Assembly (NCBI GenBank): GCA_001314715.1
Contig: LJSV01000006.1
Location: 1-64,000 of the forward strand
From: Rhodobacteraceae bacterium HLUCCA12
GTDB taxonomy: Bacteria > Pseudomonadota > Alphaproteobacteria > Rhodobacterales > Rhodobacteraceae
Length of the DNA stretch: 64,000 bases
Reading direction: 5' to 3'
Below are positions 24,351 through 27,570 of this stretch, one piece after another. Below the pieces are notes generated by a model, which was given only the letters and a program-made list of their open reading frames with translations, did no database searches and was not told the origin of the DNA. Position 1 is the stretch's first letter. Every line of letters begins with the position of its first letter. The translations under genes and the position numbers were made by a program.

Positions 24351-24423
24351 AGGGGGCCAGGGGGCTTTGCCCCCTCTTGGCCTGCGGCCAATTCACCCCC
24401 AGGATATTTACGGACAGAAAATG
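24351..24423 (+). repeat. Rhodobacterales-type GC-rich intergenic repeat, copy 1
   Basis: The copy shows three successive small palindromes: GGGGGCTTTGCCCCC at 24359-24373, TTGGCCTGCGGCCAA at 24378-24392, then ATTCACCCCCAGGATATTT. The same layout occurs at 36132-36211 and, inverted, at 27521-27570. It lies beyond the gpmI start, in the 314-bp gap up to the transposon cargo gene. Confidence 0.65.
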
Positions 24424-24462
24424 GCACGGACGATCGCTTTCATTTTCTGTCTGGAAATATCC
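24402..24462. repeat. 22-bp imperfect inverted repeat (large hairpin)
   Basis: The left arm 24402-24423 (GGATATTTacGGACAGAAAATG, in two parts) and right arm 24441-24462 are inverse complements with two mismatches, around a 17-base loop. The right arm ends in GGAAATATCC, which is also the flanking direct repeat of the transposon. The arms look like the tails of two intergenic repeats placed head-on. Confidence 0.75.
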
Positions 24463-24487
24463 GGCCTTATGTATCAAACGCACCAAG
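24463..24487 (+). repeat. left terminal inverted repeat of the transposon
   Basis: The 25-bp end begins GGCCTTATGTATCAAACG and is the exact inverse complement of 27496-27520. The direct repeat GGAAATATCC lies immediately outside (24453-24462). Just inside, CCCCCGCCGGGGGG (24488-24501) is a small palindrome not repeated at the other end. Confidence 0.85.
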
Positions 24488-24548
24488 CCCCCGCCGGGGG
24501 GCCTAGAAATGACTCTCGCAATGCCTGAAATCGTGCAAATATCGTCGG

Positions 24549-25460
24549 ATGCCAGAGATTCGCTTGCCCATTTCAATACTTTACGAGACGTCCGGTCGAA
24601 CGCCGATTTCAGAAGTCATTTTTGCGCTTCAATCTGCGGACAGCATTTCTTCAGATGCGGTCTCGCTTCTGCCGAGCTTGATAGACGGTCTTCGGATCGA
24701 AGAAAGCTCACTAAATGTTCACTCTCTTACGGAAGGATCGTTAAAGGAGGCGCTTTTCCTTGCGCTATTGTTCACCTATCAGGGCGATTTGCAAGAGGAG
24801 GTTCCTCCGATGCTTGAAGGCCTCTTCAATGTCACCGTAAGCGACAAGTACGACACCATCGCAACCGTGGTTTTCCTCACAGTCCTGTTCTACGGGACCG
24901 GAATCGCCATAGATATGGCGAGAAAAGCTCTTACGGACAGTTTGCCGAGGGAGAAGCTGAACGAGTTGATCGACGTTCTTGCGCTTGAAACCGGTAAGTC
25001 ATCATCCGATGTGAGGAGGATTGTGGAAGCGAGGTTTGAGAAGCCCGCAGCGGTCAAGCGCCTCGTTCGATCAGCCAGACAGTTCTTTCGTCCAAGCCAA
25101 AGGGACGGCAATGCCCCCATTGTCGTAGGCCGTGAGGTTCTTTCTAAGGAGCTTGAGGGCCAAGTCCCCTATCCAGGAGACGGTGATGATGACCAAGATT
25201 TTGACCGGTACGCGCCCCATCAACAAGTCACATTAGAGCTTCATGCTCAAGATAAAGATAAAAATGCCACAGGCTGGGCCGCAGTGGCGGAAGCGATCAC
25301 CGACAAGAGGCTGAAAGCTCGCATCATGGAACCAGTTCAGCCTTCCGACATTTGGCAAAAGGAACGTGTCGTCGCTGATATTGTTGTCGTGTCAAAGTTG
25401 ACATCGGACGGATACGTCCCATCCGAGATTCAGATCACTGCCATTTACCCAGACGCCTAG
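24549..25460 (+). CDS. unrecognised one-helix membrane protein, transposon cargo
   Basis: I do not recognise this 303-residue protein. Residues 1-100 look mixed alpha/beta, with LNVHSLTEGSLKEALFLALL at 55-74 resembling an amphipathic helix. One clear membrane segment spans about 103-122 (TIATVVFLTVLFYGTGIAID). Residues 125-185 are a basic helical stretch (SARQFFRPSQR). A linker with a PGDGDDDQDFD acidic run (209-219) precedes a C-terminal beta-rich domain (ITDKRLKARIMEPV, DIVVVSKLTSDGY). ATG 24549 has no good ribosome site. Base composition is distinctly AT-richer than the flanks, which suggests foreign origin. The stop overlaps the convergent DUF6471 stop by 4 bp. Confidence 0.7.
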   Translation: MPEIRLPISILYETSGRTPISEVIFALQSADSISSDAVSLLPSLIDGLRIEESSLNVHSLTEGSLKEALFLALLFTYQGDLQEEVPPMLEGLFNVTVSDKYDTIATVVFLTVLFYGTGIAIDMARKALTDSLPREKLNELIDVLALETGKSSSDVRRIVEARFEKPAAVKRLVRSARQFFRPSQRDGNAPIVVGREVLSKELEGQVPYPGDGDDDQDFDRYAPHQQVTLELHAQDKDKNATGWAAVAEAITDKRLKARIMEPVQPSDIWQKERVVADIVVVSKLTSDGYVPSEIQITAIYPDA

Positions 25461-25663
25461 AATCGCAGTTCATGCACCGCGATAGCCGACAATGCTCTTA
25501 GCATGAAGGCTGCGCTAAACTTTCCCCGCGACAGCTTGTTCCGGATGTTCACTTCCTTATCGCCGATCTTCTCTGCCAACTGCGCGTATGTCACCCCTTG
25601 GCGCTTGAGTTCAGCCTTCAAAAGGTTCGCGGCCTTGGCTTCCCAGTCTGTATGCTCTGGCAT
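25457..25663 (-). CDS. DUF6471 small HTH-like protein
   Basis: The 68-residue protein (MPEHTDWEAKAANLLKAE...) matches DUF6471: LKRQGVTYAQLAEKIGDKE, then NIRNKLSRGKFSAAFMLRAL. The helix pattern is that of a compact helix-turn-helix (an XRE-like AQLAEKIG turn), so DNA binding is likely though unproved. It diverges from the transposase gene across a 101-bp region full of inverted repeats, so it may control the transposase and itself. It converges with the membrane protein gene, their stops overlapping. Confidence 0.75.
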   Translation of the reverse strand: MPEHTDWEAKAANLLKAELKRQGVTYAQLAEKIGDKEVNIRNKLSRGKFSAAFMLRALSAIAVHELRF

Positions 25664-25764
25664 GTGTCACCTATGCTAATAAAAGTACTGCATACGTTAC
25701 TTATGCCCTTGCGCGCGATACGTCAACGTACTATCTTCGTTACTAAGGTAGCGGAGATAGTACA
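25664..25764. promoter_or_regulatory. palindrome-rich divergent control region
   Basis: The region between the DUF6471 and transposase starts has a perfect 9-bp inverted repeat, GTACTATCT (25728-25736) and AGATAGTAC (25755-25763), ending one base before the transposase ATG. It also has GCATA/TATGC around CGTTACT near 25690-25706. GGAG for the transposase lies inside the first repeat's spacer/right arm. Binding there would block translation or transcription of the transposase. Confidence 0.5.
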
Positions 25765-26730
25765 ATGGCCCAGCACTTCCTTCTTTCAGCGGCATCGCGC
25801 ACCCTGAGCCTCAAGGCGATCTACAAGGGCGGCGAAGATGCCGCGTATGCGACGTTCTGCGAAATGCGCTGGCCGGAAACCGATGGCGAAGCGATCTGCC
25901 CGAAATGCGGTTGCTGCGACACCTACAAGATCACCACCCGCCGCAAGTTCAAGTGCAAGGCCTGCGCGCACCAGTTCAGCGTAACCTCGGGCACCATCTT
26001 CGCCAGCCGCAAGATGGACTTCGTTGATCTGCTGGCGGCGATCTGCATCATGGTCAACGCGGCCAAGGGCGTTTCCATGGTCCAGCTTTCGCGCGATCTG
26101 GACTGCCAGTACAAAACCGCCTTCGTTCTGGCGCACAAGCTGCGCGAGGCGATGGCACAGGAAGTGCAGACCGGAGAAGTCCTGACCGGCCATGTCGAAA
26201 TGGATGGCGCATACTTCGGAGGGCATATCCGGCCCGCCAACCATGTCGAGAACCGCGTTGACCGCCGCCTGAAAGAACACCAGACCGGCAAGCGCCGCGT
26301 CGTTGTCGTGATGCGTGAGCGCAAGGGTCGTTCGCTGCCCTTCGTCGCCATCAATGAAGCCGAAGGCGTTGCGCTGGCGAAAGAGAACATCTGCCGCATG
26401 GCGACTATCTCGGTTGACGAAGCCAGCCACTGGGACATGCTGCATGCCGGTTGGTCAGTTGATCGCATCAACCACAGCCTTGCCTACAGCGATCTGGGCG
26501 CTTGCACCAACCAAGCCGAAAGCTTCTTCTCGCGCCTGCGCCGCCGCATGGTCGCCGGTCAACACCACCATGTCAGCCCGCAGTACCTGCACCAGTACGC
26601 CAACCATGCCGCATGGCTGGAAGACAACTGCCGTAAGGATAACGGCTCGCTTGCCTTCGGGCTGGTCGCAAACGCGATGGGTGCGCCTGTCAGCCGCGCG
26701 TGGAAAGGTTACTGGCAGCGCGCGGCTTGA
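25765..26730 (+). CDS. IS1595-family transposase (ISXO2-like)
   Basis: The 321-residue protein has an N-terminal zinc ribbon (ICPKCGCCDTYKITTRRKFK, continuing CKAC; residues 44-67) followed by HQFSVTSGTIFASRKM, typical of the IS1595 family. The DDE-type catalytic domain has D147 (HVEMDGAYFGGH), D218 (ISVDEASHWDML) and E252 in TNQAESFFSRLRRR. Length is normal and the frame is intact, so it may be active. Its codons are as GC-rich as the host's, unlike the cargo. It sits between a control region and a 14-bp palindrome that begins at its stop codon. Confidence 0.92.
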   Translation: MAQHFLLSAASRTLSLKAIYKGGEDAAYATFCEMRWPETDGEAICPKCGCCDTYKITTRRKFKCKACAHQFSVTSGTIFASRKMDFVDLLAAICIMVNAAKGVSMVQLSRDLDCQYKTAFVLAHKLREAMAQEVQTGEVLTGHVEMDGAYFGGHIRPANHVENRVDRRLKEHQTGKRRVVVVMRERKGRSLPFVAINEAEGVALAKENICRMATISVDEASHWDMLHAGWSVDRINHSLAYSDLGACTNQAESFFSRLRRRMVAGQHHHVSPQYLHQYANHAAWLEDNCRKDNGSLAFGLVANAMGAPVSRAWKGYWQRAA

Positions 26731-26769
26731 GGTATCTGAATACCTATGGTATTGTGGTATTCAGATACC
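26731..26769. promoter_or_regulatory. 14-bp perfect palindrome downstream of the transposase
   Basis: GGTATCTGAATACC (26731-26744) and its exact inverse complement (26756-26769) flank an 11-bp spacer. Each arm itself is GGTAT-N4-ATACC, so four half sites are present. No T-run follows, which argues against a terminator. It stands immediately before the ribosome site of the 31-residue micropeptide, so an operator is likely. Confidence 0.5.
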
Positions 26770-26784
26770 TATGGAGTATGTGAC

Positions 26785-26880
26785 ATGAGAAAAATTCGAC
26801 ACGCCCTTATACGACTTCTTGCCGGTAAAGACGTAATCGCGATCAACTTGTCCACACAGGGCCAATCAACTCAGTCTTGA
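26785..26880 (+). CDS. candidate 31-residue basic micropeptide
   Basis: The ORF MRKIRHALIRLLAGKDVIAI... (31 residues) starts at ATG 26785 with GGAG about 8 bases upstream. Its N-terminus is basic and amphipathic, and then NLSTQGQSTQS follows. Similar LIRLLAG-type short ORFs are, as I recall, seen in phage and element DNA of this order. It follows the 14-bp palindrome, and its stop overlaps the end of the convergent zinc-ribbon gene by 10 bp. It could be a toxin-like or regulatory peptide; nothing shows which. Confidence 0.5.
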   Translation: MRKIRHALIRLLAGKDVIAINLSTQGQSTQS

Positions 26881-27041
26881 ACCCACGCATCCTTCTTGTC
26901 CCAGATGTGTGTTTTTCCACAGTGGGGACATTTAACCCCGTTTTTTGATAAGCTGGCAGATGCGAAAGATGCCTTGTCCATGCCAATTCCAGTGGATAGC
27001 ATTTTACCAGTGTCGGGGCATTTAATCATTACTGTTCCCAT
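26871..27041 (-). CDS. small zinc-ribbon-like protein
   Basis: The 56-residue protein starts at ATG 27041 with a strong ribosome site, AGGAGGG, 6 bases upstream. It has KCPDTGKMLSTGIGMDKASF near the N-terminus and KCPHCGKTHIWDKKDAW near the C-terminus, i.e. one CxxC-type knuckle plus CP and His residues that could hold a metal. Similar short proteins with ICP-x-TG and CPHCG are common in alphaproteobacteria. Function is unknown. The longer frame to 27233 has no support. Confidence 0.75.
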   Translation of the reverse strand: MGTVMIKCPDTGKMLSTGIGMDKASFASASLSKNGVKCPHCGKTHIWDKKDAWVQD

Positions 27042-27099
27042 GATTCCCTCCTGAAAAGGGGGCAAGCATAACATATTTTGATAAGAATCGTATGGTTGC

Positions 27100-27453
27100 T
27101 TATTTTGGAAGCCACGCGCTCCCCTCATGTCGCACAATCCCAGCCCGGCGCATCTTCTGCAACGCCTGCGTTGTCCGAACATATGCCGCGCCCGTCGACA
27201 GTTCGGGCCGCTGGATTGCCACATAGGCAGCAAGGTCGCGCTGGGTGCTATAGCCCTTCCTGATACCGTCCAGGATGATCATGCGCATCATCCCCTTTCG
27301 CGCTGCGTCTGGCTTTTTTGCGGGCAGAACGACAGGCATATGAACCCCGCGCATCCGGCACAACGCTTCGACGTGCGCCAGCCCTTCGCCGTTCCCCCGG
27401 ATGATCTGCTTTCGCAGGGCGAGCAGAGCGCCATCTATCGACTTATCCAACAT
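27100..27453 (-). CDS. unrecognised small HTH-like protein
   Basis: I do not know a named family for this 117-residue basic protein. The N-terminal helix (SIDGALLALRKQIIRGNGEG) is followed by a helical stretch HVEALCRMRGVHMP. The C-terminal half looks like a winged helix: MIILDGIRKGYSTQRDLAAY, TGAAYVRTTQALQKMRRAGI, then VRHEGSAW as the wing. DNA binding is thus plausible. It lies 42 bp inside the right end of the transposon. ATG 27453 has only a weak ribosome site. Confidence 0.65.
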   Translation of the reverse strand: MLDKSIDGALLALRKQIIRGNGEGLAHVEALCRMRGVHMPVVLPAKKPDAARKGMMRMIILDGIRKGYSTQRDLAAYVAIQRPELSTGAAYVRTTQALQKMRRAGIVRHEGSAWLPK

Positions 27454-27495
27454 GCGAGAATCTTAGCGGAAATGGCGCGCAAAGGATTCCGTTTT

Positions 27496-27520
27496 CTTGG
27501 TGCGTTTGATACATAAGGCC
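27496..27520 (-). repeat. right terminal inverted repeat of the transposon
   Basis: This 25-bp sequence is the perfect inverse complement of 24463-24487. GGAAATATCC follows directly at 27521-27530 and matches the 10 bp outside the left end. Beyond it the host intergenic repeat resumes. Confidence 0.85.
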
Positions 27521-27570
27521 GGAAATATCCCGGGGGAGTCGCCCGAAGGGCGGCGGGGGCGGAGCCCCCG
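27521..27570 (-). repeat. Rhodobacterales-type GC-rich intergenic repeat, copy 2 (inverted)
   Basis: GGAAATATCCCGGGGG, then CGCCCGAAGGGCG (27539-27551) and GGGGGCGGAGCCCCC (27555-27569). Read in reverse this has the same order of palindromes as copies 1 and 3. It lies after the transposon and before the ALDH gene stop at 27610. Confidence 0.65.

Follow-up and report, generated by a model that had tools for sequence, protein, structure and literature searches.

A compact IS1595-family transposon with two cargo slots in a Rhodobacteraceae genome

In a stretch of 64,000 nucleotides from Rhodobacteraceae bacterium HLUCCA12 (contig LJSV01000006.1, positions 1 to 64,000; hereafter the window), we found a real and mobile cargo-carrying transposon of the IS1595 family that belongs to a two-slot type for which the literature searched has no label. 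The element spans positions 24462..27521 (3,060 bp), and its boundaries were set by comparison with 79 other complete elements. We consider it fairly probable that this compact cargo transposon, with its fixed core and two exchangeable slots, is kept quiet by a DUF6471 protein and a hairpin, and that its cargo serves largely in phage defence or addiction, the first cargo gene (ORF1) of this copy encoding a putative exclusion effector. A first-pass annotation, made from the letters alone, had described the region as a mobile IS1595-type cassette with five cargo genes; its mobility is borne out by related copies elsewhere that carry their own 8-bp duplications, perfect in 71 of the 80 complete elements.

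The two terminal inverted repeats are perfect and 26 bp long, the left one at 24462..24487 (+), starting with C (CGGCCTTATGTATCAAACGCACCAAG), and the right one at 27496..27521 (−). They are bordered by the target-site duplication GAAATATC, whose left (24454..24461) and right (27522..27529) copies are identical at 8/8 bases. The 25-bp perfect repeats bounding 3,058 bp and the 10-bp flanking direct repeat of the first-pass annotation are thus both present, but their lengths needed correction: the 10-mer consists of the 8-bp duplication and one matching base on each side, and a target duplication of 10 bp was discarded, since in the other elements 26-bp ends go with duplications of 8 bp. The element landed in a dispersed palindromic repeat (GGATATTT...GACAGAAA, 24402..24462) with 21 pattern matches in its own genome (G000, 3.7 Mb). 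An uninterrupted paralogous copy of this target repeat in the same genome (C8:32113-32214) aligns to both flanks joined at one duplication copy, and therefore the element is a clean insertion into the repeat. The ends occur once in the genome, with no second copy at ≤3 mismatches, as would be expected if chance inverted repeats merely surrounded native genes that do not move. This explanation, to which we give next to no credence, is refuted by the 80 complete elements, 71 of them with perfect 8-bp duplications, by the clean join to the uninterrupted repeat copy, and by a read-backwards control pattern of the ends, which gave 0 matches in the own genome and in each of 388 genomes of the bacterial family. 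In five congeners, gpmI was not found in the ~4 kb beside the aldehyde dehydrogenase gene.

To describe the family of elements, we collected transposase relatives by a scan of genome contigs, which gave 284, and kept the best 80, so that the sample leans to close kin. Together with 28 further loci and the window, these made 109 loci, which were reduced to 91 by removing 18 duplicates with identical transposases. Both ends were present in 80 of the 91, which we call complete elements; the other 11, mostly beside contig ends, did not have both. Apart from the 71 perfect duplications, two elements match at 7 of 8 bases, five at ≤3, and two have no flank. The gene order of the family is end, slot A, DUF6471, transposase, slot B, winged-helix gene, end. 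DUF6471 is found in 79/80 elements, always on the strand opposite to the transposase, and the winged-helix gene likewise in 79/80, opposite to the transposase in 78. Since both genes are near-universal, they are part of the core, and only ORF1 in slot A and the short slot B ORFs remain of the five cargo genes first counted. The 80 elements are 2,346-4,633 bp long and none is without slot A cargo; slot A spans ~600-1,120 bp (except in L102, where its 2,214 bp probably include another transposase gene), and slot B ranges from none to ~1.5 kb. Three compact plasmid relatives (1.1-1.5 kb, 60-63% identical) have the same kind of ends and neither DUF6471 nor slots. A non-autonomous derivative of 1,548 bp with a perfect 8-bp duplication (L283:1004-2551) retains, besides the winged-helix gene, no more of the transposase than its final 21 codons, and was possibly moved in trans.

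In the window, the transposase (25765..26730 (+), 321 aa) is full-length, as first annotated, and matches PF12762 (E 4.9e-32), PF12760 (E 7.7e-13, an N-terminal zinc ribbon at residues 24-70) and NF033547 (E 9.6e-38, 130.2 bits vs a cut-off of 75). Residues D147, D218, N249 and E252 are invariant in 13 aligned transposases and are candidate catalytic residues. The DUF6471 gene (25457..25663 (−), PF20075 E 4.4e-23) encodes a small helix-turn-helix (HTH)-like protein, the proposed repressor. The right-end gene (27100..27453 (−)) encodes a protein of 117 aa, whose predicted model (mean pLDDT 91.8) has helices followed by two strands and is winged-helix-like. The first-pass layout also holds in that ORF1 and DUF6471 are convergent with a 4-bp overlap, DUF6471 and the transposase are divergent, the DUF6471, zinc-ribbon and HTH-like ORFs lie where they had been placed, and the element is richer in AT than its surroundings (GC 0.547 in the element and 0.615 in the transposase vs 0.675 in the flanks).

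Directly before the transposase ATG lies an inverted repeat whose 16-base arms enclose a 4-base loop (25728..25763 (+)), which is 88% complementary as DNA and fully paired as RNA counting G-U. The region folds at -23.4 kcal/mol with a z of -6.1 (45 nt plus the ATG). Across the family, the pre-ATG fold has z < -1.5 in 59/78 elements, and a strong inverted repeat is present in 31/78 vs 6/390 shuffles. The repeat is possibly an operator, an RNA hairpin covering the ribosome-binding site, or both. The DUF6471 gene lies beside it and points away from the transposase. Its product may repress the transposase, and the hairpin may also dampen transposase translation; if both act in this way, the element would normally be quiet. 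A second, perfect 15-bp inverted repeat at the transposase stop (26730..26770) is a possible terminator or operator.

For the cargo, we chose the longest non-overlapping ORFs mechanically, which gave 89 for slot A (80 elements) and 117 for slot B (71 elements), and as a consequence some are antisense shadows, such as that in slot B of L151. Defence- or toxin-antitoxin-type cargo was found in a union of 28/80 elements: M78 in 8, SocA/Panacea in 7, KilA-N/BstA-related in 6, HEC-09 in 4, DUF4258 with MqsA in 2, and RhuM and DUF3800 in 1 each. HicA, HicB-like, RelE, SNase and PBECR3 have one slot B member each, in addition to these families. Slot B of L111 encodes a full-length BstA (E 3.1e-122); the other five KilA-N/BstA-related proteins match only the C-terminal part of the BstA profile (E 7.6e-8 to 8.9e-16). 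The M78 proteins match the PADLOC capP and RmrA models, which is weaker evidence of defence because both models share the M78 protease domain. M78 occurs in slot A in 5 cases and in slot B in 3, and HEC-09 in 1 and 3, respectively, suggesting a common cargo pool for the two slots. By eye, the proteins of the commonest slot A family (32/80 elements) carry two membrane segments at the N-terminus; a hydropathy scan detected a membrane segment in slot A of 59/80 elements vs 13 after shuffling, and in slot B of 16/71 vs 8. The early suggestion of a defence, anti-defence or addiction module is thus supported by Pfam and PADLOC matches at the level of the family, and for the copy in the window it stays a suggestion. 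We propose that the cargo could pay for the upkeep of the element, largely by phage defence or addiction.

Comparison of the cargo between copies, which the first-pass annotation had proposed, showed that the content differs from copy to copy. On a transposase tree of 74 elements (L070 was excluded as a long branch), slot content has no phylogenetic signal: with labels limited to elements of labelled families (58 for slot A and 41 for slot B of the 74), slot A labels require 25 changes vs a shuffled mean of 25.7, and slot B labels 32 vs 33.2. The winged-helix subtype keeps some tree signal (29 vs 37.3 changes; 0/100 shuffles as low). Among 11 chosen pairs of elements, no nucleotide homology was detectable in slot A in 9/11 (it is present in L096/L111 and L111/L150) and across slot B in 11/11. 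Apart from slot A of those two pairs, homology is confined to a stretch of 24-71 columns at the left end, a central block that starts inside DUF6471 or where the transposase begins and runs approximately to the transposase stop, and the right end, in some pairs together with the winged-helix gene. Slot A, between the left end and DUF6471, and slot B, between the transposase and the winged-helix gene, are thus both exchangeable. Cargo might be swapped by recombination between related elements, for which the common ends and the block of DUF6471 and transposase would provide the homology. It may be that DUF6471 travels with slot A, because the long DUF6471 isoform tracks the commonest slot A family (long in 22, short in 2, unscored in 7), and only 1/23 scored long isoforms lies outside this family, although some unscored isoforms of long appearance accompany other families. 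Recombination inside the transposase gene was also considered and is unsupported, as no third of the gene fits the labels better than another (27, 28 and 27 changes for the commonest slot A family; 21, 22 and 23 for the DUF6471 isoform). On the full gene, these labels are, if anything, more scattered than after shuffling (26 vs 24.2 changes for the slot A family and 22 vs 19.8 for the isoform), with 89/100 and 92/100 shuffles, respectively, at or below the observed value, and up to 100/100 for one third.

ORF1, the slot A cargo of the window (24549..25460 (+)), encodes a protein of 303 aa with one predicted membrane helix that matches PHROG 4506 over nearly its full length (E 2.3e-28). Its relatives are found in 15 phage records, 3 plasmid records and 32 viral contigs, and no recognisable pair of these transposon ends was present around the relatives on the 32 viral contigs. 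The closest viral relative found (contig L156, 47% identity) lies near a repressor-like gene, identified by eye, and is transcribed toward it. The relative in Escherichia phage Lambda_ev203 directly follows CI, that in Pseudomonas phage D14C follows CI one gene away, and that in PseuP_222 follows an antitermination gene instead of CI. Of the 32 viral loci we examined 30, and a CI-like gene lies within ~1.4 kb of the ORF1 relative in 19; 11 of these have near-identical repressors and L156 supplied its own query, so the number of independent loci is smaller than 19, and the rest are 25-50% identical to the queries. According to PMC8585504, many BstA genes lie downstream of a prophage repressor. 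The ORF1 relatives share the near-repressor position, while ORF1 itself is no BstA relative; a full-length BstA is carried by L111. From this position and the BstA precedent, we infer a phage-exclusion function for ORF1. It would be a membrane-anchored protein from a family whose genes often lie near the repressor in temperate phages, most likely a superinfection or abortive exclusion effector, and was most likely taken from a prophage lysogeny module. No function follows from its structure model, which is of medium quality (mean pLDDT 72.3, pTM 0.65) and matches one uncharacterised viral protein (E 1.1e-6, with a TM-score of only 0.33). Kinship of ORF1 with the slot A families c0, c1 and c28 gave no signal when the single sequence was compared with each profile. 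In slot B of the window, a 56-aa putative zinc-ribbon protein (26871..27041 (−)) has weak zinc-ribbon matches only, and the annotated micropeptide (26785..26880 (+); 31 aa, or 44 aa with a start at 26746) is doubtful and unsupported; neither has a relative in the 79 other elements at E up to 0.05.

Several observations weigh against our interpretation. The count of 28/80 is a raw count, and 52/80 elements carry no cargo in the families counted. L111, the carrier of the full-length BstA, has no matching duplications (1 of 8 bases), and the commonest slot A family (32/80) has no Pfam name. ORF1 has no Pfam match and only a chance-level NCBIfam match (E 0.026), matches 0 PADLOC-DB families, with none at E up to 1 and the BstA profile included, has no solved-structure relative by sequence at E < 0.5, and its model matches no PDB fold at E up to 0.001. 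With three queries, 11/30 viral loci yielded no CI-like gene. As for the regulation, a z of -1.5 is not reached before the transposase ATG in 19/78 elements, with none in L079 and L086, and the operator and hairpin roles of the pre-ATG repeat fit equally. The raw counts, and the fact that most slot B ORFs have no family assignment, would also agree with neutral passengers, in which case any small gene could be captured between the ends and the cargo families would reflect genes that are frequent in mobile DNA. We regard this as improbable, because the two slots have fixed borders, membrane segments in slot A are far above the shuffled level, no copy among the 80 lacks slot A cargo, and the same families recur in unrelated cores.

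A somewhat less remote alternative, still unlikely in our estimate, is a selfish addiction element, whose cargo of toxin-antitoxin pairs or toxins under repressor control makes loss costly and affords phage defence as a side effect, with the slot A membrane proteins as toxins restrained by DUF6471. The matches to SocA/Panacea, DUF4258 with MqsA, HicA, HicB and RelE agree with it, as does the association of the long DUF6471 isoform with the commonest slot A family, which would be expected of a toxin and its regulator. However, the matches to BstA, HEC-09 and PDC-S05, like the phage context of ORF1, are of the phage-defence type and not classic toxin-antitoxin modules, the slot A gene of the window is convergent with DUF6471 and shares no operon with it, and four isoforms that were unscored by the pattern and look long (L131, L133, L134, L149) accompany other slot A families.

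The duplications follow a palindromic AT-centred pattern, with AAATA or TATTT in 32/71 vs 0.26 expected from flank 8-mers, and among 69 joined sites several groups of elements share the same nucleotide in both orientations. Five elements (L069, L070, L073, L095, L123) split comM (TIGR00368) at the same nucleotide, in both orientations. The N-terminal match ends at 307-311 in four of the genomes, whereas in the fifth it runs beyond a stop to 328; the C-terminal match starts at 304-305, and all others in these genomes are weak (≤42 bits). L092, L132, L153 and L154 entered a glycosyltransferase gene that has a PLGGT motif, all at the same place and again in both orientations; PF13632 is split near position 80 in two of the genomes, and in the other two only the part from 79 on is among the matches listed. 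In L109, L114 and L115, the insertion is at the stop codon of upp, which is left intact. Six elements lie in a gene that is HNH-like by eye, a name that is unconfirmed, as PF01844 matches in the five genomes searched, all but that of L100, were not tied to the insertion site. Because orientations differ within groups and duplications differ between elements (comM, upp), each target site must have been hit more than once. For L089/L134, L109/L115 and L095/L123, we first favoured an in-place swap of cargo at one orthologous insertion, since site and orientation agree; the duplication copies agree within each element and differ between elements (e.g., GAAATACG vs GAAATACT), so the insertions are more simply independent. 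A preference for intergenic sites was not established either: stop-free spans of at least 150 aa cover 46/66 sites vs 223/264 controls, and such spans do not separate genes from gaps because the genomes are GC-rich.

Recurrent target sites in conserved genes, together with the presence of slot A in all elements, would fit slot A and B products that serve transposition itself (target choice, immunity or membrane tethering) and not the host. We consider this very unlikely, because elements that differ in their slot A gene, and whose transposases share 53-56% or 80% identity with that of the window, have inserted at one and the same comM site, and because ends of this type also flank the compact 1.1-1.5-kb relatives, which have no slots. 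Returning to exchangeable defence cargo, a broader version is conceivable, and we put it forward tentatively: a class-wide family of miniature two-slot transposons might act as a shuttle for single-gene phage immunity, in which slot A holds repressor-adjacent exclusion genes captured from temperate phages and paired with toxin-antitoxin or abortive-infection genes in slot B, rapid exchange erases the memory of the transposase lineage, and repeated insertion at fixed nucleotides in conserved genes is self-protective. If so, insertion into comM would lower the transformation that could remove the element, DUF6471 would be the hallmark repressor of the family, and slot A would be a catalogue of unrecognised membrane exclusion proteins. 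The family gives genomic context to Pfam's DUF6471. Because transposons this small can be located through their ends, it also amounts to a collection of short, self-delimited cassettes where new single-gene phage defences may be sought, a search space of 80 delimited elements and of 284 relatives in one scan.

Siguier et al. (2009) reportedly described IS1595 elements with passenger genes. According to PMC8101967, the IS1595 groups, which include ISPna2, ISNwi, ISSod11 and IS1016, produce 8-bp duplications, usually have a single transposase gene, and have an N-terminal zinc ribbon in all groups except IS1016. The window family shares the DDE_Tnp_IS1595 domain, the N-terminal zinc ribbon, the 8-bp duplication and terminal inverted repeats, whose length varies in the IS1595 family (14 bp in ISApl4), and has in addition two cargo slots, DUF6471 and the winged-helix gene. 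Its three core genes and its slots set it apart from the single-gene organisation, and since IS1595 members are only 'usually' single-gene, this makes the family a variant and does not exclude it from IS1595. IS1595 elements with passenger genes are already known, as PMC5704250 indicates, where MTnSag1 and tISCpe8, the latter titled a lincomycin resistance element, are integrative and mobilizable, with an IS1595-type transposase, 25-bp terminal inverted repeats and 8-bp duplications. The window element resembles them in its transposase type, similar inverted repeats and 8-bp duplications, and differs from them in that the cargo of its family varies between copies and is partly of defence or toxin-antitoxin type. 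No window ORF matched mobilization families in general profile scans; no search for an origin was made. Tn7-like elements are much larger than the 2.3-4.6-kb elements of the window family. They likewise carry variable cargo including defence systems and toxin-antitoxin modules (PMC8649781), whereas the window family has different transposition genes, with one transposase gene and two fixed slots in 2.3-4.6 kb. In Acinetobacter, AbaR and other elements, some with defence genes, interrupt comM (PMC11472951); the window family likewise splits comM and differs in its alphaproteobacterial hosts and IS1595-type transposase. These further cases, from Alphaproteobacteria, bear on the question of why comM is interrupted by mobile elements again and again. 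Among the matches listed in the literature searched, which covered titles and abstract openings and left most subscription papers outside its scope, there was no description of a two-slot DUF6471 family and no mention of DUF6471.

The 80 elements are mostly titled Rhodobacterales. Transposase relatives at E ≤ 1e-40 are present in 27/394 genomes of the bacterial family and 2/18 of the genus, the own genome included in both; the second genus member is taken to be the same element as L076 (Pararhodobacter sp.), with the same coordinates. Allowing ≤2 mismatches, the 22-base end sequence occurs in 38/388 genomes of the bacterial family. In Alphaproteobacteria, PF20075 is present in 19/289 genomes at 22 places including the window, and an IS1595 transposase adjoins it at 12/22, all of which are among the 14 with E up to 2e-20. 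Ten distant DUF6471 loci include five with recognisable ends and perfect 8-bp duplications (3.35-4.8 kb, transposase 47-63% identical) and five without recognisable ends with perfect duplications; distant versions of the element thus occur in other alphaproteobacterial families. L117, L149 and L153-L155 come from metagenome-assembled genomes titled Flavobacteriaceae, Phenylobacterium, Rhizobiaceae group, Hyphomicrobiales and Nitrospirae, and some of these contigs may be mis-binned. Single end-repeats, some near contig ends and with no partner in the stretch fetched, occur in G044 (L284-L288) and G285 (L289-L290), and are possibly remnants or copies broken by assembly.

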